Below the pieces are notes generated by a model. It was not told the origin of the DNA and made no database searches. It was given only the letters and a program-made list of their open reading frames with translations. This document shows positions 6,870 through 56,417 of a stretch of DNA of 64,000 nt, in pieces. The number at the start of each line of letters is the position of its first letter. The stretch's first letter is position 1. Position numbers and translations under genes: made by a program. Origin of the DNA: Dehalococcoidia bacterium (GTDB lineage: Bacteria > Chloroflexota > Dehalococcoidia > UBA2979); the NCBI GenBank assembly GCA_009692725.1, contig SHYP01000005.1:1-64000 (forward strand), written 5' to 3'.

Positions 6870-7751
6870 TTATGACACGGGCGGCACCACATCCTGCGGC
6901 CACAGCAGCTCCATGCCCTGCCCGCGGAACGCCGTACCGATGAGCGTCAGCACCACGTACACCGCGATGAAGCCGGAGAACTGCGCGATCATGTGGTCGC
7001 GCTTCGTCCGCGCGATCCCGCGCCGATGCAACACCAGCGACATCAGGATCGGCAGCCCGATCATCATCGTCACTGGCAGCACCTGCTCGACCAGCAACGC
7101 GGGCAGGTTCACGTTCAGATCGATGCGCGGCAGCCCCAGTAGGTCCGTGCGCAACACCTTCGAACCGAGCGGGATCGTCGTCAGCTCAGACGGCCAGTTG
7201 ATGTCGTCCTGCAACGCGCGGGCGTTCTTCAGCCAGTTCAGGTTGGTCGGCCACTCCTTGACGTTGTTCCCGGTCAGCCGCGCCCACAGCACCACGTGCT
7301 TCGAGCTGTCCCAGACGATCAGCAGCAACGTGCCCACGGTGCCGACGACCGCGCCGATGATCATGTTCAGCTTCGCGCGCGGCGTCGCGAACCACTCGCC
7401 CTGCCCGTCGTGCGAGCGGTCGAAGTACGGGATCGCGCCCAGCGCGATCAGCGCCACCGTCGGCACGATCACGCCCGCCAGCGCCGGGTGCATGTGCAGC
7501 AGCAGCTCCTGCAGGTTCAGGAAGTACCACGGCGCCTTCGAGGGGTTCGGCGTCACGCCCGCATTCGCGCGGTCGAGCAGCGGCGCGTTGATGAGGATCG
7601 ACAGCGCCGTCATCGACAGCGTGAACACCACCGCCGCGATGAACTCCACGAAGACGAGGTCCGGCCAGACCAGCAGCTCCTCGTCCCGCTGCCGGCGCGC
7701 GCGTGCGCGCACGGCGGGGGAGGCGGCGGTCTCTTGCGTCGTGGCAACCAT
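6870..7751 (-). CDS. Cytochrome b C-terminal domain protein (subunit IV type)
   Basis: 293-residue membrane protein corresponding to the C-terminal half of cytochrome b, encoded separately as in b6f complexes. The PDLVFVEF... region is followed by several hydrophobic helices and [21 protein letters not shown], which resembles the quinol-site PEWYF region (here APWYF). The N-terminal 30 residues are polar and Arg-rich. It starts 15 bases after the stop of the cytochrome b6-like gene and has a GAGGAG site, so the two are cotranslated partners. Confidence 0.92.
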
Positions 7752-12566: not shown

Positions 12567-13298
12567 CTAGGCTCGCGTGCTACAGCGCGGTAAGCCCCCG
12601 ACCGCGTGGCCGCCGTCGAGTATCACCTGAAGTCGCACCAAGCGCCTCACCTGCCCACTGACGGCCGCGTCGAGCTCGTCCTTCACCCTTCGCGGCAGCA
12701 TCAGTTCCGAAAAACGCCGCTGCTCGAGGTCCACGAGCAACTCGTCGGCCGTCCTTCCGGTGGCCTTCGCGAGTATCCACCTCCGCACGCCTCTCGGTGG
12801 ACGCTCGCGCAACCGCCGCTGCACAGCCTCGTCGGCGTGAAACCCCCAGCGATCGAGCCGCTCAACAACCTTTCCGCCGCGCCACCACGTCACCGTAACA
12901 CGACTTCCGGCATCCCCTTCCTCGATACGCACATCGAACCGTTCGATGCTATCGCTCCCGCCATCGGAGTCCGCGGTCCGCTCCTCCCAGGCGATTCGCC
13001 ACGGCCGTGCGAGCGCTGTGATCTCGCAGCGCGCCACCCGACTGCGCTCCCACAGCCGGGCCCCGTGGAGCAGTGCGTACCACCAGCCCGCAGGCGCCAG
13101 ATTGGCATAGACCTTCGTGAACGTCGCGCCGATTCCCGCCCTGAAATCGTCGGCGTGGCGGACCTCCGCCAGATCAGGCGCCCACTCCATGTGATGCCGA
13201 ACGTCCAGCAAGTAGTCGTGTACAACCTGCGGTGACGCGCTCGTTGACCAGCCAAATTCCCAGCCGAGCGATCCCAGCGCCCTCGAGGTGACAGCCAC
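12567..13298 (-). CDS. SRPBCC (START-like) superfamily protein
   Basis: 243 residues. The N-terminal part looks like a helix-grip hydrophobic-ligand fold: WEFGWSTSASPQVVHDYLLDVRH, then HMEWAPDLAEVR and GATFTKVYANL, followed by strands ending in SRVTVTWWRGG. The C-terminal 90 residues are Arg-rich and helical. This group includes polyketide cyclases and lipid-binding proteins; no catalytic residue is evident and no ligand can be named. It lies between purF and purM with one base to purM, which suggests coexpression rather than shared chemistry. Confidence 0.6.
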   Translation of the reverse strand: MAVTSRALGSLGWEFGWSTSASPQVVHDYLLDVRHHMEWAPDLAEVRHADDFRAGIGATFTKVYANLAPAGWWYALLHGARLWERSRVARCEITALARPWRIAWEERTADSDGGSDSIERFDVRIEEGDAGSRVTVTWWRGGKVVERLDRWGFHADEAVQRRLRERPPRGVRRWILAKATGRTADELLVDLEQRRFSELMLPRRVKDELDAAVSGQVRRLVRLQVILDGGHAVGGLPRCSTRA

Positions 13299-46132: not shown

Positions 46133-46143
46133 CCCAATGTGCG

Positions 46144-46270
46144 GTTCATCGAGAGTGGTGGAGGGCTCGGCCCCGCGAAGCCACGGCAACCTGCCCTCCC
46201 TGCCACGCGGCCGGGACGGCGACGGTGCCAAATCCGCCCCGACGCCTGAGCTGGCGCGGGAGAGATGAAC
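46144..46270 (+). promoter_or_regulatory. SAM-I (S-box) riboswitch
   Basis: Stem P1 is GTTCATC (46144-46150) with GATGAAC (46264-46270). Inside are the S-box conserved blocks: GAGAGTGGTGGAGGG, CTCGGCCCCGCGAAGCC, ACGGCAACC, then GGTGCCAAATCC and a P4 hairpin GCCTGAGCTGGC. It binds S-adenosylmethionine and normally switches off sulfur/methionine genes. Here it precedes a threonine-synthase-family gene by 208 bases. Confidence 0.93.
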
Positions 46271-46314
46271 TGGGAGCAACGATGGCGCAGCGGCACCGCC
46301 CTTATCTCCACCGT

Positions 46315-46427
46315 TATGTGCTGGCTCGCGCCCGGCGGCCGATGGCGATGCCCACGCCCGCTCGCGCCTGACCGCGAGCGGGCGTCACTCCCCGCAGCGC
46401 GGTCCGGAGCCGCGCGACCAGCACATA
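46315..46427 (+). promoter_or_regulatory. Nested hairpins, likely expression platform of the riboswitch
   Basis: TATGTGCTGG (46315-46324) pairs with CCAGCACATA (46418-46427). Inside lie a perfect 13-base-pair stem (46354-46366 with 46373-46385, loop CCTGAC) and GCGCGG-TCCGGAG-CCGCGC (46397-46415). No T-run follows, so the mode may be Rho- or translation-based. Confidence 0.6.
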
Positions 46428-46478
46428 CTGACCCCCGCCATCCACGCCGATGCCGGCGAGCCGGAGCGAAGTGCGACC

Positions 46479-47744
46479 ATGACGTTTGAAACGGCCCTGC
46501 GCTGCAGGGAATGCGGGCGCGAGTACGCGCTCACCCCGATCTACTCCTGCGAGTTCTGCTTCGGGCCGCTCGAGGTGGCCTACGACTACGACGCCATCCG
46601 CGAGGCGATGTCCCGCGATCGCGTGGCGGCTGGCCCGGCCACGCTCTGGCGCTACGCCGAGCTGCTGCCGTGCGACCCCGCCTACAAGGTCGACCTCGGC
46701 ACGGGCTTCACCCCGCTGCTCCGGGCGGATCGCCTCGCGAAGGCGGTGGGCCTCGACACGCTCTGGCTGAAGAACGACACGGTGAACCCGACATGGTCGT
46801 TCAAGGACCGCGTGGTGTCCGTGGCGATCGCGCGGGCGCGCGAGTTTGGCTTCGAGGCGATGGCCTGCGCCAGCACTGGCAACCTCGCCAACTCCGTGGC
46901 GGCGCACGCGGCGCGGGCGGGCATGGCCGCCTACGTCTTCATCCCGCAGGACCTCGAAGCGGGCAAAGTCGTGGGCAGCGCCATCTACGGCCCCACGCTC
47001 GTGATGGTGGAGGGCTCCTACGACGACGTGAACCGGCTGTGCTCGGAGGTCGCGGGCACCCATCCGTGGGCGTTTGTGAACATCAACGTGCGCCCGTACT
47101 ACGCCGAGGGCTCGCGCACGCTCGCCTTCGAGGTCGCGGAGCAGCTCGGCTGGCGCGCGCCGCAGCACTGCGTGGCGCCGATGGCCTCCGGCTCGCTCTT
47201 CACGAAGATCTGGAAGGGCCTCCAGGAGCTGCACAAGGTCGGGCTGACCGATGAAGCGCCGCGGACGCGCATGTCGGGCGCGCAGGCCGCGGGCTCGTCG
47301 CCGATCGCGACGGCGTTCAAGCACGGCACCTTCAACTTCGTGCCGCAGAAGCCGAACACGATCGCGCGCTCGCTGGCGATCGGCAATCCGGCGGACGGCT
47401 ACTATGCGCTGAAGGTGATGGAAGAGACGGGTGGCGGCGCGGAGCTCGCCACCGACGACGAGATCGTCGCGGGCATGCGTCTGCTCGCCGAGACCGAGGG
47501 CATCTTCGCGGAGACGGCGGGCGGCGTGACCGTGGCGTGCCTCCAGCGGCTTGTGGCGAGCGGCGCGATCCGCCGCGACGAGGAGACCGTGGCGTTCATC
47601 ACCGGCGGCGGCCTGAAGACGATCGAGGCGGTGCAGGGCAAGCTCGCGCCCGCGGTGCGGGTGCCGGCGAACGCGGCCGCGTTCGAGCTCGCGCTGGAGG
47701 CGCACCGCACCCGCGCGGCCGTGGGCGCGGCGGGAGGTGCGTGA
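46479..47744 (+). CDS. thrC: Threonine synthase-family PLP enzyme under SAM riboswitch
   Basis: 421 residues. A zinc-ribbon N-terminus (Cys9, Cys12, Cys24, Cys27) and GTGFTPLLRADRLA lead to the PLP Lys109 in SFKDR; STGNLANSVAAHAA binds the cofactor phosphate. The family converts O-phosphohomoserine to threonine. Control by a SAM riboswitch and coupling to a NIL gene and a sulfur carrier gene point instead to sulfur metabolism, possibly homocysteine formation from the same substrate. By sequence alone threonine synthase is the safe name; the other role is inference. TGATG overlap with the next gene. Confidence 0.85.
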   Translation: MTFETALRCRECGREYALTPIYSCEFCFGPLEVAYDYDAIREAMSRDRVAAGPATLWRYAELLPCDPAYKVDLGTGFTPLLRADRLAKAVGLDTLWLKNDTVNPTWSFKDRVVSVAIARAREFGFEAMACASTGNLANSVAAHAARAGMAAYVFIPQDLEAGKVVGSAIYGPTLVMVEGSYDDVNRLCSEVAGTHPWAFVNINVRPYYAEGSRTLAFEVAEQLGWRAPQHCVAPMASGSLFTKIWKGLQELHKVGLTDEAPRTRMSGAQAAGSSPIATAFKHGTFNFVPQKPNTIARSLAIGNPADGYYALKVMEETGGGAELATDDEIVAGMRLLAETEGIFAETAGGVTVACLQRLVASGAIRRDEETVAFITGGGLKTIEAVQGKLAPAVRVPANAAAFELALEAHRTRAAVGAAGGA

Positions 47745-47986
47745 TGGCGAATCGCAGGGTGCGCTTCACGTTCGAGCCGAAGCTCATCAAGGAGCCGGTG
47801 ATCTACCGTCTCGGCCAGGAGTTCCGGCTGGTCACGAACATCCGCATGGCGGACGTGGACGAGGACGTCGGCTGGGTGGTGCTGGAGCTCGAGGGCGATC
47901 CTGGCGAGATCGACCGCGGCATCGCGTGGGCGGAGCAACAGGGTGTGCGCGTCGACCCCGCGCTGGGCGACGTCGTCGAGGGGTAG
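47744..47986 (+). CDS. NIL-domain protein
   Basis: 80 residues. It begins MANRRVRFTFEPKLIKEPVI and has EFRLVTNIRMADVDEDVGWV and LELEGDPGEIDRGIAWAEQQ, the ferredoxin-like NIL fold found at the end of MetN transporters and in free-standing sulfur proteins. It carries no Cys. The ATG overlaps the thrC stop and has GGAGG upstream, so the two are translationally coupled. It probably senses or binds a sulfur amino acid or assists the PLP enzyme. Confidence 0.85.
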   Translation: MANRRVRFTFEPKLIKEPVIYRLGQEFRLVTNIRMADVDEDVGWVVLELEGDPGEIDRGIAWAEQQGVRVDPALGDVVEG

Positions 47987-48003
47987 GGTCGAGGGGTAAG
48001 GGC

Positions 48004-48279
48004 ATGGCCATCAACGTGAAGATCCCCACGCCGCTGCGCGGCCTGACCGGCGACGCCGATACCGTCGCGGCTGACGCGGCGACGCTCGGCGAGCTTGTCG
48101 GCGCGCTCGAACGCGGCTACCCCGGCATGCGCGAGCGGCTGTGCGACGAGACCGGCTCGCTGCGGCGCTTCGTGAACGTCTACATCAACGGCGAAGACGT
48201 GCGCTTCCTCGCAGGCCTCGACAGCGCGCTCAAGTCCGGTGACGAGGTCTCGATCGTGCCGGCCGTGGCGGGGGGGTAG
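48004..48279 (+). CDS. Ubiquitin-like sulfur carrier protein (MoaD/ThiS type)
   Basis: 91 residues, beta-grasp: MAINVKIPTPLRGLTGD ... RRFVNVYINGEDVRFL ... GDEVSIVPAVAGG. It ends exactly at Gly90-Gly91, ready for adenylation and thiocarboxylate formation. GAGGGG precedes the ATG, 17 bases after the NIL gene. Third gene of the SAM-riboswitch unit. MoaD is the generic alternative, but no molybdopterin synthase gene is adjacent. Confidence 0.88.
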   Translation: MAINVKIPTPLRGLTGDADTVAADAATLGELVGALERGYPGMRERLCDETGSLRRFVNVYINGEDVRFLAGLDSALKSGDEVSIVPAVAGG

Positions 48280-48631: not shown

Positions 48632-49075
48632 ATGCACATCGGGACGAAGGGCGACTACGGCGTGCGCGCGCTCATCGATCTCGCGCTCTACGGCGGGGAT
48701 CGCCCGGTGCAGCGCGCGGAGATCGCACGGCGCCAGCACATCCCGGAGTCGTACCTCGATCACCTGCTGGGGCAGCTGCGGCGGGACGGCTTCATCCGCT
48801 CCACGCGCGGCCCGGGCGGGGGGCACCAGCTGACCCGCCCTGCCGAGGAGTTCTGCCTGCTGCACATCCTCGAGAGCCTGGAGGGGTCGCTCGCCCCATT
48901 GCCCTGCCTCGAGGACGACGAGGTGGGCGAGCCGCACTCGGTGTGCGCGCAGCAGTGGGTGTGGCGCGAGATCTACGACGATATGCGCGAGCGGCTCGCG
49001 GCCGTGTCGCTGGCGGACCTCGCCGCCCGCGAGCGCGAGCGGCTGCGCACCGCCGCGCTCAGCTACGCGATCTAG
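48632..49075 (+). CDS. Rrf2-family transcriptional regulator
   Basis: 147 residues from ATG 48632. GDYGVRALIDLALYGG, IARRQHIPESYLDHLLGQLRRDGFIRSTRGPGGGHQL is the winged-helix domain. Cys residues in FCLLH, PCLEDD and SVCAQQ could bind an iron-sulfur cluster, but their spacing differs from IscR. Heading a cysteine cluster, it resembles CymR, the Rrf2 repressor of cysteine metabolism. It is followed after eight bases by cysK. Confidence 0.88.
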   Translation: MHIGTKGDYGVRALIDLALYGGDRPVQRAEIARRQHIPESYLDHLLGQLRRDGFIRSTRGPGGGHQLTRPAEEFCLLHILESLEGSLAPLPCLEDDEVGEPHSVCAQQWVWREIYDDMRERLAAVSLADLAARERERLRTAALSYAI

Positions 49076-49083
49076 GGCGATAC

Positions 49084-50025
49084 ATGGCGACGACCGAACA
49101 CGAAGCGTTGAGCGGTGAGGGCATCGTCGATTCCGTGCTCGAGCTGATCGGCGCGACGCCGCTCGTGCGGCTCGCGCGCGTGACGCCGGAGGGCTCCGCG
49201 GAGGTGCTCGGCAAGCTCGAGGCGCGCAACCCGGCTGGCTCCGTCAAGGATCGCATCGCGCTCTCGATGGTCGAGGCGGCCGAGCGCGAGGGGCGGCTGC
49301 TTCCCGGCGCGACGCTCGTCGAGCCGACCTCTGGCAACACCGGCATCGGGCTCGCGATGGTGTGCGCGCGCAAGGGCTACCGGCTCGTGCTGACGATGCC
49401 GGAGGACTACAGCGTGGAGCGGCGGCGGCTGCTGGAGCGCTTCGGCGCGGAGCTGCAGCTGACCCCGGCGATCGAGGGCATGACCGGCGCGGTGTTCGCC
49501 GCCCAGGAGCTCGTGGAGCAGCGCGGATACTGCATGCTGCAGCAGTTCGACAACCCCGCTAACCCGGAGGTGCATCGCCGCACCACCGGCCCCGAGATAT
49601 TGCGCGCGACCGCGGGGCGGCTCGACGCCTTCGTGGCGGGGGTGGGCACCGGCGGCACGATCACGGGCGTCGGCGAGGCGCTACGCTCGGCGGGCGTCGC
49701 GGCGCGCGTGGTAGCCGTGGAGCCGGCGCGCTCGCCGGTGCTGCAGGGCGGCCGGGCGGGGCTGCACGGTATCCAGGGCATCGGCGCCTCGTTCGTGCCG
49801 GGCGTGCTGAACCCCGACATCTACGACGAGGTCATCAGCGTGCGTGACGAGGATGCGTACGCGATGACGAAGCGGCTCACGCGGGAGGAAGGGCTGCTGG
49901 TGGGCATCTCCTCCGGTGCGAACGTGTGGGCGGCGCTGCAGGTGGCCGCGGAGCTGGGCCCCGGCCGCCGCGTGGTGACGATGTTGTGCGATACAGGCGA
50001 GCGCTACCTGAGCGTGGCGCTGTGA
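49084..50025 (+). CDS. cysK: Cysteine synthase (CysK type)
   Basis: 313 residues, fold-type II PLP enzyme. VLELIGATPLVRLARV, PLP Lys in NPAGSVKDRIA, phosphate-binding PTSGNTGIGLAM and GVGTGGTITGVG; GISSGANVWAAL near the end. It makes cysteine from O-acetylserine and sulfide. Second gene of the Rrf2-headed cluster, which also holds a distinct CysM. Confidence 0.92.
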   Translation: MATTEHEALSGEGIVDSVLELIGATPLVRLARVTPEGSAEVLGKLEARNPAGSVKDRIALSMVEAAEREGRLLPGATLVEPTSGNTGIGLAMVCARKGYRLVLTMPEDYSVERRRLLERFGAELQLTPAIEGMTGAVFAAQELVEQRGYCMLQQFDNPANPEVHRRTTGPEILRATAGRLDAFVAGVGTGGTITGVGEALRSAGVAARVVAVEPARSPVLQGGRAGLHGIQGIGASFVPGVLNPDIYDEVISVRDEDAYAMTKRLTREEGLLVGISSGANVWAALQVAAELGPGRRVVTMLCDTGERYLSVAL

Positions 50026-50062
50026 CGGTACGAACGCAGCTACAGCGGAGGGACGGCACCCC

Positions 50063-51244
50063 ATGCCCATAAGCGTCTACATCCCGTCGCCGTTCCGGCG
50101 GCTCACCCAGAACCGCGAGTACGTGTCCGTCGAGGGCGCCACGGTCGCGGAGGTGCTGGACGCCGTGAACGCGCGCTACCCCGGCTTCGAGATGCTCGTG
50201 TACGACCGCGAGCGTTCGATCCCGGCGCACATCAACATCTACGTGAACAATCTCGAGATCCACGAGCTCGGCGGCACCGCCACCGCGCTCCAGGACGGCG
50301 ACCAGCTCGCGGTGATCCCGGCGGTCGCCGGCGGCGCAGACGTGCCTGCCGGAGCGCCGGGCAACGGCGCGACGCCGGCTGCCGGCTCGGCGCTCAGCCC
50401 CGATGAGGTGATGCGCTACTCGCGGCACATCATCATGAACCAGGTGGGGCCCGGCGGGCAGCGCAAGCTGCGCAACGCGAAGGTGCTCGTGGTCGGCGCG
50501 GGCGGGCTCGGCTCGCCGGTGGCGATCTACCTCGCGCTCGCGGGCGTCGGCACGATCGGCATCGTCGAGTTCGATACCGTCGACCTCTCGAACCTGCAAC
50601 GGCAGCTGCTGCACCAGACCGGCGACGTCGGCAAGTCCAAGCTGCTGTCTGCGCGCGAGACGCTCGCGTCGTACAACCCGCATGTCACGGTCGTCGGGCA
50701 CGAGGCGCCGCTGACCTCGGATAACGCGTTCGAGATCATCCCGCAGTACGACATCATCGTGAACGGCGCGGACAACTTCGCGACGCGCTACCTCGTGAAC
50801 GACGCGGCGTACCTGTCCGGCAAGACGCTCGTCGACGGCTCGATCCTGCTGTTCGACGGGCAGGCGACGGTGTTCAAGCCGGGCTTCGGCTGCTACCGCT
50901 GCCTTTACCCCGCCCCACCGCCGCCCGGCCTCGTGCCGTCGTGCGCGGAGGCGGGCGTGCTGGGCGCGATCACCGGCATCGTCGGCTCCATCCAGGCGAC
51001 CGAGGTGTTCAAGCAGGTGCTCGGCATCGGCGAGCCGCTCGTCGGGCGGCTGCTGCTGGTGGACGCGTTGACGATGGAGTTCCGTGCGATGAAGCTGCGC
51101 CGCGACCCGGAGTGCCCGCTCTGCGGCGATCACCCCACGGTCACCGAGCTCATCGACTACGACCAGTTCTGCGGCTCGCCGCCGCTGGTCGCGCCGGAGC
51201 CGGCCATGCTGTCCGCTGGGGCGACGGTCGCCGGGGACAGCTAG
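50063..51244 (+). CDS. Sulfur carrier fused to E1-like adenylyltransferase (ThiS-MoeB/MoeZ type)
   Basis: 393 residues. Residues 1-91 are a beta-grasp carrier ending VAGG (Gly90-Gly91), followed by an Ala/Gly/Pro linker (92-110). Residues 111-393 are a MoeB/ThiF E1 domain: YSRHIIMNQVG, nucleotide loop VGAGGLGSP (144-152), DTVDLSNLQRQ, zinc pairs CYRC and CPLC, and Cys294 in PSCAEAG. It lacks the rhodanese domain of MoeZ. It should adenylate carrier C-termini for sulfur transfer. Its own GlyGly is internal and needs cleavage to be used. Confidence 0.9.
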   Translation: MPISVYIPSPFRRLTQNREYVSVEGATVAEVLDAVNARYPGFEMLVYDRERSIPAHINIYVNNLEIHELGGTATALQDGDQLAVIPAVAGGADVPAGAPGNGATPAAGSALSPDEVMRYSRHIIMNQVGPGGQRKLRNAKVLVVGAGGLGSPVAIYLALAGVGTIGIVEFDTVDLSNLQRQLLHQTGDVGKSKLLSARETLASYNPHVTVVGHEAPLTSDNAFEIIPQYDIIVNGADNFATRYLVNDAAYLSGKTLVDGSILLFDGQATVFKPGFGCYRCLYPAPPPPGLVPSCAEAGVLGAITGIVGSIQATEVFKQVLGIGEPLVGRLLLVDALTMEFRAMKLRRDPECPLCGDHPTVTELIDYDQFCGSPPLVAPEPAMLSAGATVAGDS

Positions 51245-51286
51245 CCGGGTCGGTCCAACAGCAGGCACGGGCGGAGGGGGCACGCG

Positions 51287-51574
51287 TTGGCGGTGCAGGT
51301 ACAGGTCACGTCGGTAATCCAGCGGGTCGTGGACGGCCAGCGGCAGCTTGCCGCCGAAGGGGTGAACGTCGCCGAGATCATCGACGATATCGAGCGGCGC
51401 TACCCCGGCTTCCGTGCGCAGCTGATGGACGAGCACGGGCAGCTGCACCGCTTCGTGAACATCTACCTCAACGACGAGGACATCCGCTTCTTGCAGGGCG
51501 CGGCCACCGCGCTCGCCGACGGCGACCGGGTGTCGATCCTGCCCGCCCTCGCCGGCGGGTGTCACCTGCCGTGA
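51287..51574 (+). CDS. Sulfur carrier protein with GlyGly-CHLP tail (CysO-like)
   Basis: 95 residues from TTG 51287 with GGAGGGG upstream. Beta-grasp with HRFVNIYLNDEDIRFLQG and RVSILPALAGG; Gly90-Gly91 is followed by Cys-His-Leu-Pro. Such tails are removed by JAMM proteases in related systems (QbsE/QbsD), and a JAMM gene lies 3 kb downstream. The tail codons fall in a GTCAC repeat unit, so they could also be an accident of repeat insertion. Confidence 0.85.
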   Translation: MAVQVQVTSVIQRVVDGQRQLAAEGVNVAEIIDDIERRYPGFRAQLMDEHGQLHRFVNIYLNDEDIRFLQGAATALADGDRVSILPALAGGCHLP

Positions 51575-51593
51575 CGGGGTCACTCGCCGTGAC
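51561..51593 (+). repeat. GTCAC-N5-GTGAC 3'-end element, copy 5 (double unit)
   Basis: GTCACCTGCCGTGAC (51561-51575) overlaps the carrier stop codon; after GGG, GTCACTCGCCGTGAC (51579-51593) and GGGCACGG follow. Same orientation to the upstream gene as copies 1, 2 and 4. Confidence 0.7.
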
Positions 51594-51705
51594 GGGCACG
51601 GACTTGCAGCCGACCGCGCTGAGCAGGGCGGACGACGCGGGATCGCGGCGGGGCGCTTCGGGGCGGTCGAGCTAGGCGCCGGCGGACAAGGGGCTCGGCA
51701 CTACG

Positions 51706-52641
51706 ATGCGCTACACGAGCATGCTCGAACTCGTCGGCAACACGCCGCTCGTGGAGATCGCCGCGCTCTCGCCCAAGCCATCCGTGCACCTGTGGGCCAA
51801 GCTGGAGGGTCAGAACCCCACCGGCTCCGTGAAGGACCGCATCGCCAAGTTCATGGTCGAGGCCGCTGAGCGCAACGGCACGCTGCGGCCCGGCCAGCGC
51901 ATCCTCGAGCCGACCTCCGGCAACACCGGCATCGCGCTCGCGATGATCGGGCGGCTGCGCGGCTACCCGGTGACGGTGGTGATGCCCGATGCGGTGAGCG
52001 CCGAGCGCATCGAGATCCTGCGCGCGTTCGGCGCGGAGATCATCTTCTCGCCCGGCGACCTTGGCACGAACGGCTCCGTGGCGATGGCGCGCGAGGTCGC
52101 GGCGCAGCACCCCGACTGGTTCATGCCCTTCCAGTACGAGAACGCCGAGAACCCGCGCGCCCACTACGAGACCACGGCGCCCGAGATCATCCGCGACCTG
52201 CCGGAGGTCGACGTGTTCGTCGCCGGGCTGGGCACGGGCGGCACGCTGACCGGCGTCGGGCGGCGGCTGAAGGAGCACAACCCCGCGGTGCGCATCGTGG
52301 CAGCGGCGCCGCACCCCGGCGACCTCGTGCAGGGGCTGCGCGCGCTCGAGGACGGCTATATCCCGCCCGTGTTCGACGAGACCGTGCTCGACGGGCGCAT
52401 CGTGGTGGACTCGCAGAGCTCGTTCCGCGCGACGCGCGACCTGACGGTGCGCACCGGCATCTTCGCCGGCGTCTCCAGCGGCGCCGTCGTGCGCGCCGCG
52501 CAGAAGGTGGCCGAACGCATGGACGGCGGCCACGTGGTCTGCCTGCTCGCCGACGGTGGCTGGAAGTACCTCTCCTCCGGCCTGTGGACGCAGGACTACG
52601 ACGCGATCGAGGAGCGGGTGGGCTCGCAGCTCTGGTGGTAG
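51706..52641 (+). CDS. cysM: Cysteine synthase CysM, O-phosphoserine/sulfur-carrier type
   Basis: 311 residues. MRYTSMLELVGNTPLVEI, PLP Lys in NPTGSVKDRIA and PTSGNTGIALAM. The C-terminus WKYLSSGLWTQDYD ... GSQLWW matches the mycobacterial CysM end, which closes over the active site. That enzyme uses O-phosphoserine and a thiocarboxylated CysO. The neighbouring carrier, E1 and JAMM genes support the same route here. Confidence 0.9.
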   Translation: MRYTSMLELVGNTPLVEIAALSPKPSVHLWAKLEGQNPTGSVKDRIAKFMVEAAERNGTLRPGQRILEPTSGNTGIALAMIGRLRGYPVTVVMPDAVSAERIEILRAFGAEIIFSPGDLGTNGSVAMAREVAAQHPDWFMPFQYENAENPRAHYETTAPEIIRDLPEVDVFVAGLGTGGTLTGVGRRLKEHNPAVRIVAAAPHPGDLVQGLRALEDGYIPPVFDETVLDGRIVVDSQSSFRATRDLTVRTGIFAGVSSGAVVRAAQKVAERMDGGHVVCLLADGGWKYLSSGLWTQDYDAIEERVGSQLWW

Positions 52642-52708
52642 CCTGCGCCGCGGCGGGCTCCGGCACGGCGCTTGACCTTCGAGTGGCTTGAATCGATAAG
52701 GTCGTCGC

Positions 52709-53329
52709 GTGGGCGAGACAGTCAGCATCGGGGTCGCGGCACGGGAGAGCGGGCTGGCGCCGTCCGCGATCCGGTACTACGAAGCTGCCGGTGTGCTGCC
52801 GCCCGCCGCGCGTGGCGACTCGGGGTACCGGCTGTACGCGGCGGACGACCTGCGGCGGCTCAGCTTCGCGCAGAAGGCGCGGGCGCTCGGGCTGCCGCTG
52901 GCGGACGTGCGCGCGCTCGTCGCGCTCGCCTTCGACGGCGACTGCGGCGAGTACGTCGACGACCTCACCGAGCGGCTACGCGCGCGGCGCAACGACGTAG
53001 AGCAACAGCTCGCGGCGCTCGACGCGCTGCGGCTGGAGCTCACACGGCTCGAGGAGCGCGCGCGGGCAGCGCAGTGCGACGACGGCGTCGCTACGCACTG
53101 CGCGCCGGACGGCGACTGCTGTCTCGGCAGCCCCTGTGGCGCGAGTCGAGCGCCAGCACGCGGGGAGGAGGAAACGCCATGCAACCAGGTTGCGAATGCG
53201 ACTGCGGCCAGTGCGACTGCGACAGCTGCTGCTAGCATCGCGCTAGCGATCGACCGGCGGCCGGGCATGCACGGCCCGCCGGGCGCTCCTCCACGATGCA
53301 GCGGCAGCACCAATAGCGGCGCGGCGTGA
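52709..53329 (+). CDS. MerR-family regulator with Cys-rich C-terminus
   Basis: GTG start at 52709; 206 residues if read to the stop. The helix-turn-helix is SIGVAARESGLAPSAIRYYEAAGVLPP, followed by GYRLYAADDLRRLSFAQKARALG and a coiled coil (about 85-125). Cys in GDCGEY, QCDDG, THC and GDCCLGSPCG suggest metal or thiol sensing. The last 55 residues are low-complexity and overlap a separate Cys-rich peptide gene, so the true end may differ. Confidence 0.82.
   Translation: MGETVSIGVAARESGLAPSAIRYYEAAGVLPPAARGDSGYRLYAADDLRRLSFAQKARALGLPLADVRALVALAFDGDCGEYVDDLTERLRARRNDVEQQLAALDALRLELTRLEERARAAQCDDGVATHCAPDGDCCLGSPCGASRAPARGEEETPCNQVANATAASATATAAASIALAIDRRPGMHGPPGAPPRCSGSTNSGAA
53179..53235 (+). 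CDS. 18-residue Cys-rich peptide, metallothionein-like
   Basis: MQPGCECDCGQCDCDSCC has seven Cys in 18 residues. A strong GGAGGAGG site lies eight bases before the ATG. It overlaps the end of the MerR gene in another frame. It could chelate metal or report cysteine supply through its seven Cys codons. Alternatively, a frame error would make it the tail of the MerR protein. Confidence 0.55.
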   Translation: MQPGCECDCGQCDCDSCC

Positions 53330-53360
53330 TCGCGCAGCGCGATACGAAGGGGGAGGCACC

Positions 53361-54185
53361 ATGGTCGATAAGCTGGTGACGGCGGACTGGGTGGCGCAGC
53401 ACGGCAACGACGCCGGCGTGCGCCTCGTCGAGGTGGACGTCGACACCACGGCGTACGGCGAGCAGCACATCGCGGGCGCCGCCGGCTGGAACTGGACGAC
53501 GCAACTCCAGGACCAGCAGCGCCGCGACATCATCTCGAAGGAGGGGCTCGAACAGCTGCTCTCGGCCTCCGGCATCGCGAACGACACCCACGTGGTGCTC
53601 TACGGCGACAACAACAACTGGTTCGCGGCGTACGCGCTGTGGCTGCTGGAGCTGTACGGCCACGAACGCGTCTCGCTGATGGACGGCGGCCGCGTGAAGT
53701 GGCTCGCCGACAGCCGCCCGACGACCGCCGACGTGCCGGGCGCGACCCCAACCACCTACCGCGCGCAGCCCGCGAACGCCGCCCTCCGCGCGAAGCGCGA
53801 CGACGTGCTCGGCGTGGTCACGGGCGGTGTCGCGCAGCTCGTGGACGTGCGCAGCCCCGCCGAGTTCAGCGGCGAGATTATCGCGCCGCCCGGCATGAGC
53901 GAGACCGCGCAGCGCGGCGGCCACATCCCCGGCGCGAAGAGCATCCCGTGGGCGCGTGCTGTGAACGAGGACGGCACCTTCAAGGCACCCGACGAGCTCC
54001 GCGCGCTCTACGGCGGCGCGGGCGTGGAGGCAGGCACGCCGACGATCGCGTACTGCCGCATTGGCGAGCGCTCCTCGCACACCTGGTTCGTGCTCAAGCA
54101 CATCCTCGGCTACGCCAACGTGCGCAACTACGATGGCTCATGGACCGAATACGGCTCGCTCATCGACGTCCCGATCGAGCGCTAG
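53361..54185 (+). CDS. Thiosulfate/3-mercaptopyruvate sulfurtransferase (two rhodanese domains)
   Basis: 274 residues. The N-terminal rhodanese domain (about 5-120) lacks an active-site Cys. The C-terminal domain has LVDVRSPAEFSGE and the catalytic Cys232 in YCRIGERSSHTWF, as in mycobacterial CysA/SseC-type enzymes. It could supply persulfide sulfur to the carrier proteins, replacing the rhodanese domain missing from the E1. GGGGGAGG precedes the ATG. Confidence 0.92.
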   Translation: MVDKLVTADWVAQHGNDAGVRLVEVDVDTTAYGEQHIAGAAGWNWTTQLQDQQRRDIISKEGLEQLLSASGIANDTHVVLYGDNNNWFAAYALWLLELYGHERVSLMDGGRVKWLADSRPTTADVPGATPTTYRAQPANAALRAKRDDVLGVVTGGVAQLVDVRSPAEFSGEIIAPPGMSETAQRGGHIPGAKSIPWARAVNEDGTFKAPDELRALYGGAGVEAGTPTIAYCRIGERSSHTWFVLKHILGYANVRNYDGSWTEYGSLIDVPIER

Positions 54186-54186
54186 C

Positions 54187-54606
54187 GTGACGGCAGACTC
54201 GACAGCGGCGCAGGCGCCGGGCGGCGTCGCGGACAGCGCGGCGACGCGCGCGCTGCAGCAGTTGCTGCTGCGGCGTGCGCTCGCCGCGGGCGAGCCCGGG
54301 CGGCTGCACGTGCGCTTCGATGCGCGCGTGCTGGACCGCTACCGCGAGCGCGGCGCGCAACTGCTGCGCACGCGCACCGTCGGGCGGGTCGCGATCCCCG
54401 GCGCATGGTCGCTCGACGTCGGCATCGCGGCGGAAGGCCGCGAGCTACACGTACCGTTCGACGACCTGCGCCAGCGGCTGCCGGAGGCCGAGCGCGAGCA
54501 CTGGCTCGCGCACCTGCTCGACGTGCCGCTCTCCGCAGCCTTCCTGCAGATGCGCCTGACACCCGGCGCCTGCATCGACGACGGCGAGACGGAGGCGTGG
54601 GGCTAA
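54187..54606 (+). CDS. Hypothetical protein in the cysteine/JAMM cluster
   Basis: 139 residues from GTG 54187, one base after the sulfurtransferase stop and abutting the JAMM ATG. ALQQLLLRRALAAGEPGRLHVRFDARVLDRYRER starts it, with VGRVAIPGAWSLDVG and HVPFDDLRQRLPEAEREHW later. It has one Cys (GACIDDGE). No family is recognised. The tight spacing on both sides suggests it works with the protease or sulfurtransferase. Confidence 0.65.
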   Translation: MTADSTAAQAPGGVADSAATRALQQLLLRRALAAGEPGRLHVRFDARVLDRYRERGAQLLRTRTVGRVAIPGAWSLDVGIAAEGRELHVPFDDLRQRLPEAEREHWLAHLLDVPLSAAFLQMRLTPGACIDDGETEAWG

Positions 54607-55044
54607 ATGGTGCACATCGCCCAGCCGGTGCTCGACGAGCTGTGGGCGCACGCGAACGAGGACCGCGAGCGCGAGGTGTGCGGCTTCATCCACGCGCTTG
54701 ATGGCCGGCTCACCGTGCACCGCGTGCGCAACGCCGCCGCGGACGGCGCCGGCAAGTGGCGCTACTTGATGGACTCGCAGGAGCAGTACGCGGTCGAGAA
54801 GGAGCGGGAGCGCTCCGGCGCGCAAGTCTTCGCGATCTACCATTCGCACGTGCAGTCGGTCGCGCAGCCCTCGGAAACGGACGTGCGCATGGCGATCTGG
54901 GAGCTGCCGGAGCCGATCGGGCGGGCGGCGGTGTACCCGGACGCCTACTACATCGTCGTCTCGCTCACGCACGAGCCGCGCATCCGCGCCTGGCGCATCC
55001 CGCTCGACGGCGTGCCGGTCGAGGAGCCGATCGAGGTCGCGTGA
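54607..55044 (+). CDS. JAMM/MPN+ metalloprotease (Mec-like)
   Basis: 145 residues with the complete JAMM zinc motif: Glu23 (REREVCGF), His79-x-His81 (YHSHVQS), Ser89 and Asp92 (PSETD). Mycobacterial Mec removes cysteine from the CysO-cysteine adduct; QbsD trims carrier tails. Here it could do either, and could also release the carrier from the E1 fusion. The start is directly after the preceding stop; it overlaps folP by GTGA. Confidence 0.92.
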   Translation: MVHIAQPVLDELWAHANEDREREVCGFIHALDGRLTVHRVRNAAADGAGKWRYLMDSQEQYAVEKERERSGAQVFAIYHSHVQSVAQPSETDVRMAIWELPEPIGRAAVYPDAYYIVVSLTHEPRIRAWRIPLDGVPVEEPIEVA

Positions 55045-56417
55045 CTCAGCCCGAGCCCGGCGCCCCGCCCGCGGCGACCGCGATCGGCCGCCACCGGTTC
55101 GTGTGGGGCACGCGCACGTACGTCATGGGCATCGTGAACGCGACGCCGGACTCCTTCTCCGGAGACGGCGTGCTGGACCCCGCGGCGGCCGCCGCGCAGG
55201 CGCGGCGCATGGTCGCCGACGGCGCGGACCTGCTCGACATCGGGGCGGAGTCGACGCGGCCCGGGCACGTCCCGCTCTCCGTGGACGTGGAGTGGGCGCG
55301 GCTGGCGCCGGTGCTGCACGCGGTCCGCGCGGCGGTCGCCGTGCCGCTCTCCGTGGACACCGCGAAGGCGGCCGTGGCCGCGCGCGCCTTCGCGGCCGGC
55401 GCCGACGCGCTCAACGACATCCACGGCCTGCGCGCCGACCCCGCGTTCGGCCCCTTGCTGGCGCGCACGGGCGGCGCGGCCGTGCTCATGCACAACCAGC
55501 GCGGGCGCCGCTTCTCCGGCGACGTCATCGCCGACGTCCGTGCCGGCCTGCGCGCCAGTCTGCAGCTCGCGCGCGACGCTGGCGTCGATGAGCGGCGCGT
55601 GATCCTCGACCCGGGGTTCGGCTTCGGCTGGGAGCCGGCGCAGAACCTCGAGCTACTGCGGCGGCTAGGCGAGCTGCGCGACCTCGGGCGGCCGCTGCTC
55701 GTGGGCACGTCGCGCAAGTCGACCATCGGGCACGTGCTCGAGCGCGCCGAGGGTGAGCGCGCGTGGGGCACGGCCGCGACGGTGGCGCTGGCGATCGCTG
55801 CGGGGGCGGACATCGTGCGCGTCCACGACGTGCGTGAGATGGCGGAGGTCGCGCGCGTGGCGGACGCGGTCGTGCGCGGCTGGCCGCCCGCGGAGCGGCG
55901 CGTCTGGCTCGGCCTCGGCGGCAACCTGGGCGACCGCCTTGCCGTGTTCCGGCGCGCGCTCGCCGGGCTCGAGGCGGGCGGCGTGGCGGTGCAGCTCGTG
56001 TCGGCGGCCTACGAGACGCCGCCATGGGGCGTCGTGGACCAGCCCCGCTTCGCGAACGCCGCGCTCCAGGGGCGCACCGCGCTCGCGCCGCACGCCCTGC
56101 TCGCGCTCGCCAAGCGGCTCGAAGCGGAGGCCGGACGCGACTTCGCCGCGCCGCGCAACAGCGCGCGGCCGCTCGACATCGACCTGTTGCTCATCGAGGG
56201 CGTGCAGCTCGACGAGTCGCAGCTCACGGTGCCGCACACCCATCTGCACGAGCGGGCGTTCGTGCTGGTGCCGCTCGCGGAGATCGCGCCGGCGCTGCGC
56301 CACCCGCGCCTCGGGCGGACGATGCGCGAACTGGCTGCCACCGTCGCCGCGGATGGGATCGAGTCGCTGGCGGACGCCGGCTGGTGGCTCCCTCCCGGCG
56401 ACGGCCGCGCGTCGTAA
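55041..56417 (+). CDS. folP-folK: Dihydropteroate synthase fused to HPPK
   Basis: 458 residues from GTG 55041. The N-terminal DHPS (about 25-290) has MGIVNATPDSFSGDG, DIGAESTRPG, ALNDIHGL and LVGTSRKS. The C-terminal HPPK (about 295-440) has WLGLGGNLGDR, YETPPWGVVDQPRFANAA and RPLDIDLLLI. The two consecutive folate steps are joined in the order P-K, reverse to the fungal/plant K-P form. Confidence 0.93.
   Translation: MTQPEPGAPPAATAIGRHRFVWGTRTYVMGIVNATPDSFSGDGVLDPAAAAAQARRMVADGADLLDIGAESTRPGHVPLSVDVEWARLAPVLHAVRAAVAVPLSVDTAKAAVAARAFAAGADALNDIHGLRADPAFGPLLARTGGAAVLMHNQRGRRFSGDVIADVRAGLRASLQLARDAGVDERRVILDPGFGFGWEPAQNLELLRRLGELRDLGRPLLVGTSRKSTIGHVLERAEGERAWGTAATVALAIAAGADIVRVHDVREMAEVARVADAVVRGWPPAERRVWLGLGGNLGDRLAVFRRALAGLEAGGVAVQLVSAAYETPPWGVVDQPRFANAALQGRTALAPHALLALAKRLEAEAGRDFAAPRNSARPLDIDLLLIEGVQLDESQLTVPHTHLHERAFVLVPLAEIAPALRHPRLGRTMRELAATVAADGIESLADAGWWLPPGDGRAS

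Follow-up and report, generated by a model that had tools for sequence, protein, structure and literature searches.

What does a relative of threonine synthase do when its gene stands behind a riboswitch for S-adenosylmethionine (SAM) and in front of a gene for a sulfur carrier? The question is raised by positions 46143 to 48279 of a 64-kb stretch of Dehalococcoidia bacterium DNA (assembly GCA_009692725.1, contig SHYP01000005.1, positions 1 to 64,000; hereafter the window), where a SAM-I aptamer precedes genes for a threonine synthase (ThrC) relative, here termed SR-ThrC, a NIL-domain protein and a small carrier. We propose that this operon specifies a homocysteine synthase under methionine regulation, one that would have evolved within the threonine synthase family and would act through a carrier thiocarboxylate, and from the sequence evidence we place the probability of this reading at about 0.68. 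Greater confidence attaches to the narrower claim that SR-ThrC is an enzyme of the methionine pathway and not the threonine synthase of the cell.

An operon behind a SAM-I riboswitch

All features of the operon lie on the forward strand. The SAM-I (S-box) riboswitch aptamer occupies positions 46143-46271, beginning one base earlier than in a preliminary description of the locus, which had correctly recognised it. Its match to RF00162 spans the full model (positions 1-108) at 70.1 bits (gathering score, 44.4; E = 2.5e-14), which assigns it to the SAM-I class; no other match within the window exceeds a gathering score. Between the aptamer and the SR-ThrC gene sits a long hairpin (46312-46430), formed in the minimum free energy fold by pairing of 46312-46330 with 46413-46430; it is not followed by a U-run and may be the expression platform.

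SR-ThrC (46479-47744) is a pyridoxal 5′-phosphate (PLP) enzyme of 421 residues that belongs to PF00291, scoring 273 bits against TIGR00260 (cut-off 167.1) and 296.8 bits against PRK08197, slightly below the cut-off of 303. It is probably a homocysteine synthase acting on O-phosphohomoserine and a carrier thiocarboxylate. The packing of the three genes is as tight as had been described: the start ATG of the NIL gene overlaps the SR-ThrC stop TGA (TGATG), and 17 bases separate the NIL gene from the carrier gene. The free-standing NIL protein (47744-47986; 80 residues; PF09383, 57.7 bits) carries a NIL domain of the MetN type by both profile and fold. Sequence and profile search gave neither a cysteine nor a ferredoxin part, and a function as sulfur or electron carrier was ruled out because the protein is cysteine-free; it is probably a methionine-sensing partner. 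The CysO/MoaD-type carrier (48004-48279; 91 residues; PF02597, 65.4 bits) does end exactly in GlyGly (VPAVAGG-stop), and its closest solved relative is 3dwg_C (83.8 bits), which we take to be CysO.

SAM-I and T-box elements across relatives

Ten sequences were aligned against a genome collection, giving 158 encoding stretches, and the best 80 of the 158 were used as relatives. They belong to Chloroflexota, most bearing the title Chloroflexi or Dehalococcoidia, and to Actinomycetota, among which Acidimicrobiia are numerous. SAM-I and pathway counts refer to 50 genomes drawn from those that carry the 80 loci, the window's own genome not being among them. The class of regulator, the gene content, the linkage, the changed active site and the failure to find known alternatives in most relatives are read directly from these sequences.

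SAM-I scored above cut-off in 42/50 genomes (22/24 plus 20/26). The arrangement seen in the window recurs widely: in 35/50 genomes from two phyla a SAM-I element lies 20-287 bases (median 174) upstream of SR-ThrC, distances being taken to the start of the ThrC-like protein match. Thirty of the 35 gave no further SAM-I among the candidates scored, which in many genomes numbered 102 or 97. Because SAM-I stands directly upstream in these 35 genomes and a carrier adjoins SR-ThrC at 75 of the 80 related loci, the gene arrangement is not due to chance. Five genomes have SAM-I only elsewhere (G018, G020, G021, G023, G035), and two more (G048, G050) combine an above-cut-off SAM-I elsewhere with a weaker element upstream of SR-ThrC that stays below threshold (37.9 and 30.4 bits). 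For the eight genomes with no SAM-I above cut-off, the loci (L015, L017, L028, L029, L041, L053, L066, L076) were scanned below gathering scores and gave none. One of them, L029, has a sub-threshold match to Whalefall-1 RNA at 13071-13111 (28.8 bits, gathering score 37).

Eight SAM-I sites elsewhere were scanned for the next gene, which was mtnA in five, metK in one, and a gene for a GNAT-type acetyltransferase or a universal stress protein in one each; in these lineages SAM-I is therefore found mainly at methionine and SAM genes. The mtnA (methionine salvage) sites, where SAM-I directly precedes the gene, are in L089, L091, L092, L095 and L096, with a methylthioadenosine phosphorylase gene next in L089, and the metK site is in L098. 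At the two other sites (L090, 2277-3403; L094, 6802-7980) the next long frame encodes the acetyltransferase and the universal stress protein, respectively, which are, to our knowledge, not known SAM-I targets.

A probable second kind of methionine control is present at two loci, L067 and L074, where a T-box leader (69 bits, below the gathering score of 93) lies between a SAM-I-like element and SR-ThrC; when all 80 loci were scanned for T-box motifs, these two only had a T-box upstream of SR-ThrC. The specifier loop in both, GAAG-AUG-A, was read as Met, the codon being placed by comparison with the Rfam consensus and with the usual T-box architecture. Ordinary thrC and thrB directly precede the leaders in both genomes (G048 C291, G050 C9), so that the order runs thrC, thrB, SAM-I-like element and T-box, SR-thrC, carrier. 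Since the two loci are alike over the 40 bases compared, the T-box was counted as one event. In L067 a second T-box leader (7116-7542, 104.3 bits) follows the carrier gene; its loop was read as CUC, suggesting a leucine specifier.

A threonine synthase fold with a changed active site

SR-ThrC shares the family profile, the PLP lysine and the fold of threonine synthases and departs from them in the residues on the substrate side. In T. thermophilus numbering, the PLP lysine Lys61 is retained in 81/81 sequences, and each of the changes S155 to N, N157 to R, R160 to Y and N188 to S is found in 81/81, as is replacement of the GNAGN loop. S155, R160, N188 and the GNAGN loop are presumably substrate-side sites of threonine synthase, with Arg160 and Asn188 binding the substrate phosphate. 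The 12 ordinary ThrCs compared, 11 of them encoded by these genomes and one by T. thermophilus, all have S155, R160, N188 and the GNAGN loop, and 11/12 have N157. Five solved threonine synthases, including a plant enzyme whose loop reads GNLGN, also retain the substrate-side residues in an alignment judged by eye. The comparison with true ThrC that the preliminary description had suggested thus gives differing positions in all 81 relatives.

The structure model of SR-ThrC has a mean predicted local distance difference test score (pLDDT) of 87.3, and the closest solved structures are threonine synthases; identity is 35-38% to the solved bacterial enzymes and 25% to the plant enzyme. In a tree with 28 of the 81 sequences SR-ThrC forms one clade with a support of 100 in the Shimodaira-Hasegawa-like approximate likelihood ratio test (SH-aLRT). 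Its origin within the superfamily is unsure because long branches separate this clade from PRK08197-like paralogues. Among the matches listed in protein searches, the database rows bearing a source's name label SR-ThrC threonine synthase, and the best 120 of 8000 matches name only metagenome-assembled genomes (MAGs) of Acidimicrobiales and Actinomycetota. Another class of ThrC-like paralogue was met at L110-L118, with an N-terminal four-cysteine motif in 9/9 and a PTGGGTG loop in 6/9.

Threonine and homocysteine genes of the relatives

If SR-ThrC serves methionine synthesis, what else do these genomes encode? A separate ordinary ThrC, defined as a match beginning at query residue 42 or later with at least 140 bits, is present in 45/50 (20/24 plus 25/26), so the second thrC proposed as a check in the preliminary description does exist in nearly all relatives. 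Homologs of thrB were above cut-off in 39/50, and O-phosphohomoserine should therefore be available.

The conventional homocysteine genes, metA, metX, metB, metY and metZ, had likewise been named as a check, and most relatives gave no match to them at the thresholds used. PF01053 (MetB/MetC/MetY/MetZ), counted only above 60 bits, was not found in 37/50 genomes and is present in the other 13; matches with E ≤0.001 occur in 50/50 and matches above the Pfam cut-off of 27 bits in 41/50. By the 60-bit measure it is also not found in 27 of the 35 genomes with SAM-I upstream of SR-ThrC. MetA was found in 1/50 (G049). MetX was counted at 100 bits or more, the curated 500 bits being reached by no match, 14 control genomes included; it was found in 5/50 (G003, G022, G041, G042, G044), with matches at E ≤0.001 in 46/50, and the G003 match (140 bits) may be another acyltransferase. 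The DUF39 enzyme (PF01837) was found in 0/50 relatives and matched in 3/14 control genomes. On these counts a Wolinella-type MetY route and the DUF39 route were both rejected. A candidate homocysteine methyltransferase (PF01717 at 100 bits or more, or PF02574 above cut-off) occurs in 28 of the 37 genomes without PF01053.

The earlier suggestion that this ThrC relative makes homocysteine is supported by the separate ThrC in 45/50, by the failure to find PF01053 in 37/50 and by the active site changed in 81/81. The situation that would speak against it, a single thrC beside a full conventional pathway, was looked for in the 50 relatives, and the outcome mostly favours that suggestion.

Linkage to the carrier and a second carrier system downstream

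At 75/80 loci SR-ThrC is followed by a carrier gene within 1.2 kb, and this rises to 70/73 if only loci with over 1.5 kb of sequence left are counted; a NIL gene is present at 50/80. GG forms the C-terminus of 39 of the 75 carriers, 34 continue for one to four residues past it and 2 are unclear. A single Ala follows GG in 13 of the 34 tailed carriers, and one of the 34, in L064, is probably truncated by a contig end. Such tails would need trimming; the Wolinella carrier, in the form HcyS-Ala, is reportedly trimmed of its tail. In a carrier tree built on few columns, the carriers adjoining SR-ThrC require three changes and not one.

Further genes on the same strand, absent from the preliminary description, could supply carrier activation and release. 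An Rrf2-family regulator (48632-49075; PF02082, 117.8 bits), IscR/CymR-like and under the IscR and CymR equivalog cut-offs, is followed by the cysteine synthase CysK (49084-50025; TIGR01139, 429.4 bits, cut-off 350.95). Next comes a ThiS-ThiF fusion (50063-51244; PF02597 and PF00899), an E1-like carrier-activating enzyme that has no rhodanese domain and covers only positions 13-289 of the 392 of the MoeZ model. A second carrier (51287-51574; PF02597, 59 bits), ending ALAGG-CHLP, precedes a CysM-like enzyme (51706-52641) that matches 3dwg_A at 303.5 bits, the alignment extending to the C-terminal QLW; this closest solved relative is a carrier-dependent O-phosphoserine sulfhydrylase. A MerR regulator gene stands between the CysM-like gene and that for a rhodanese protein (53361-54185; PF00581, 99.9 bits over two matched stretches), a possible sulfur donor. 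A JAMM (Prok-JAB) metalloprotease (54607-55044; PF14464, 65 bits; motif HSHVQSVAQPSETD, HxH..SxxD) is the candidate for amino-acid release from the carrier. Taken as a unit, 48632-55044 looks like a complete carrier-dependent cysteine cluster. The open frame of a dihydropteroate synthase-hydroxymethyldihydropterin pyrophosphokinase fusion for folate synthesis (54756-56414; start codon unsure) overlaps the JAMM gene.

The block of Rrf2, CysK, ThiS/ThiF, carrier and CysM genes follows SR-ThrC at 29/80 loci, two of which end at a stretch edge. JAMM was above cut-off in 47/50 genomes and lies on the same contig, 4.7-11.1 kb from SR-ThrC, in 24/50.

These linkages bear on the best-surviving alternative, namely that SR-ThrC is a ThrC-family phosphohomoserine sulfhydrylase that uses free sulfide, the carrier belonging to another pathway. 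The regulation and the genes not found fit this equally well, the cluster holds both CysK and a CysM-like enzyme, and three loci have no carrier nearby. It would nevertheless leave the carrier as a constant neighbour across two phyla, more constant than NIL, and JAMM and ThiS-ThiF genes are near in many loci; we regard free sulfide as unlikely.

Proposed mechanism

From this material we infer the substrate of SR-ThrC, the sulfur donor, the order of the steps and the role of the NIL protein. In a first step, the ThiS-ThiF enzyme would adenylate the terminal glycine of the carrier, and sulfur would convert this glycine to a thiocarboxylate. SR-ThrC would then bind O-phosphohomoserine through PLP and expel the phosphate to give a vinylglycine-type intermediate, as threonine synthase does, and the carrier thiocarboxylate, in place of water, would attack at the gamma carbon to yield carrier-homocysteine. 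Finally, the JAMM protease would cut this conjugate and release homocysteine to methionine synthase. SAM would shut the operon through the riboswitch, and the NIL protein would probably sense methionine.

Several observations weigh against this proposal. Nearly all the related genomes are draft MAGs without completeness figures; the absence of a single gene in a draft weighs little, and the pattern over 37 genomes means more. SAM-I above cut-off is not upstream of SR-ThrC in 15/50 genomes, and three loci (L053, L055, L062) have a NIL gene and no carrier nearby. With Arg160 and Asn188 replaced, the substrate could be something other than O-phosphohomoserine. Among the 37 genomes counted as lacking PF01053, 28 hold partial matches of 27-38 bits, above the Pfam cut-off, which we read as cross-matches of other PLP enzymes because only part of the profile is covered. 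Of the 13 genomes with PF01053 above 60 bits, two (G021, G025) have it as short pieces, and MetX stands beside a PF01053 gene in G022, G041, G042 and G044, as MetA does in G049; in genomes with a protein of the conventional families the SR-ThrC route is redundant or something else. Nine of the 37 genomes give no methyltransferase match, and the candidates in the others could serve only the recycling of S-adenosylhomocysteine, which also yields homocysteine, so that they are no proof of de novo synthesis.

Other readings of SR-ThrC

Could SR-ThrC be a second threonine synthase, controlled by SAM to balance threonine against methionine, with the MoaD-type protein serving molybdenum cofactor synthesis? 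Its TIGR00260 score and its closest solved structures would suit such a role. High SAM favours threonine synthesis in the case of the plant threonine synthase, and would be expected to favour and not repress it here, yet SAM-I stands before this gene, as does a Met T-box at two loci. An ordinary ThrC is already present in 45/50 genomes, and the substrate-side residues altered in 81/81 are, by eye, retained in the five solved threonine synthases. This reading is improbable, and in its plain form it was rejected on the changed active site and the methionine-type regulation.

It is more doubtful still that cysteine is the nucleophile. SR-ThrC would then be a fold-type II replacement for MetB that forms cystathionine, and a MalY/PatB-type lyase would complete the route. 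MalY-type lyases fall outside PF01053 and so were not covered by the PF01053 counts, which leaves room for such an enzyme; a PF01053 lyase was itself not found in 37/50, and the linked carrier and protease would have no role. Least probable of all is some SAM-repressed side route in which carrier sulfur is joined to another activated amino acid: the loss of Arg160 and Asn188 does leave the electrophile undefined, but thrB in 39/50, the thrC and thrB genes next to SR-ThrC at L067 and L074, and the Met T-box point to O-phosphohomoserine and methionine.

Comparison with known systems

The preferred reading, a carrier-dependent homocysteine synthase, can be set against several described systems. 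SR-ThrC has the fold and PLP lysine of threonine synthase, whereas its substrate-side residues and GNAGN loop are replaced throughout. In the HcyS-HcyD-HcyF-MetY route of Wolinella (Krishnamoorthy and Begley 2011), MetY is said to form homocysteine from O-acetylhomoserine and a protein thiocarboxylate, with release by a metalloprotease. Thiocarboxylate sulfur for homocysteine and metalloprotease release are proposed here too, and 13/75 carriers end in GG-Ala as a further likeness; in contrast, the place of MetY (PF01053) is taken by a PF00291 enzyme, and PF01053 was not found in 37/50 relatives.

The homocysteine route described with DUF39, NIL-ferredoxin and COG2122 (PMC5764234) has the NIL domain in common with the window. 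It differs, as far as the excerpts of that paper describe it, in that PF01837 is found in 0/50 relatives and the NIL protein of the window has no cysteine or ferredoxin part. Thermococcus TK1449 has been suggested to be a phosphohomoserine sulfhydrylase and is likened to cystathionine beta-lyase and gamma-synthase (PMC5120207). The conversion of O-phosphohomoserine to homocysteine is the same as that proposed for SR-ThrC, but SR-ThrC is of the ThrC family and carrier-linked, whereas the excerpted text on TK1449 neither likens it to ThrC nor mentions a carrier.

A ThrC-family homocysteine synthase, a SAM-I element before such a gene, or this set of genes was not described in the titles and abstract openings of the open-access papers listed in the literature searches. 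As far as that search goes, the parts are known singly (SAM-I, the ThrC fold, the thiocarboxylate carrier, JAMM release), and their combination and the predicted reaction are new. According to the excerpts of Price et al. (2018), at least one homocysteine pathway is undiscovered, and Aquifex aeolicus, Pyrolobus fumarii and Acidimicrobium ferrooxidans are without a known one (PMC5764234). SR-ThrC, whose family is present in MAGs of Acidimicrobiia and Dehalococcoidia, is a concrete candidate for this gap. It is fairly likely that the locus represents a new route, shared by Chloroflexota and Actinomycetota and filling at least part of that gap, in which SR-ThrC replaces the phosphate of O-phosphohomoserine with sulfur from a dedicated CysO-type carrier, under SAM-I control (a Met T-box in one lineage) and with a NIL sensor in Chloroflexota. 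Many environmental bacteria would then probably make homocysteine, the precursor of methionine, with a so far unrecognised enzyme. Should this be true, routine annotation would miscall such bacteria as unable to make methionine and as having two threonine synthases, and the threonine synthase family would have gained gamma-replacement chemistry.

A close parallel is the CysO-CysM-MoeZ-Mec pathway of Mycobacterium, a cysteine pathway whose enzyme takes O-phosphoserine (PMC3227635). Compared with the excerpts of that source, the window has a CysO-like carrier with a terminal GlyGly, an E1-like activator, a JAMM protease and a fold-type II PLP enzyme, and it also holds a CysM-like enzyme 4 kb downstream of the SR-ThrC gene. 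It departs from that description in several respects: the activator is a ThiS fusion without the C-terminal rhodanese domain of MoeZ, rhodanese being a separate gene; regulation is through SAM, and there is an additional NIL protein; and the enzyme behind the riboswitch falls in the ThrC and not the CysM family and would act at the gamma carbon, giving homocysteine. If the proposal holds, genes that lie side by side would supply both cysteine and homocysteine through carrier-based sulfur insertion, with O-phosphoserine, the known substrate of CysM, one carbon shorter than the O-phosphohomoserine proposed for SR-ThrC.

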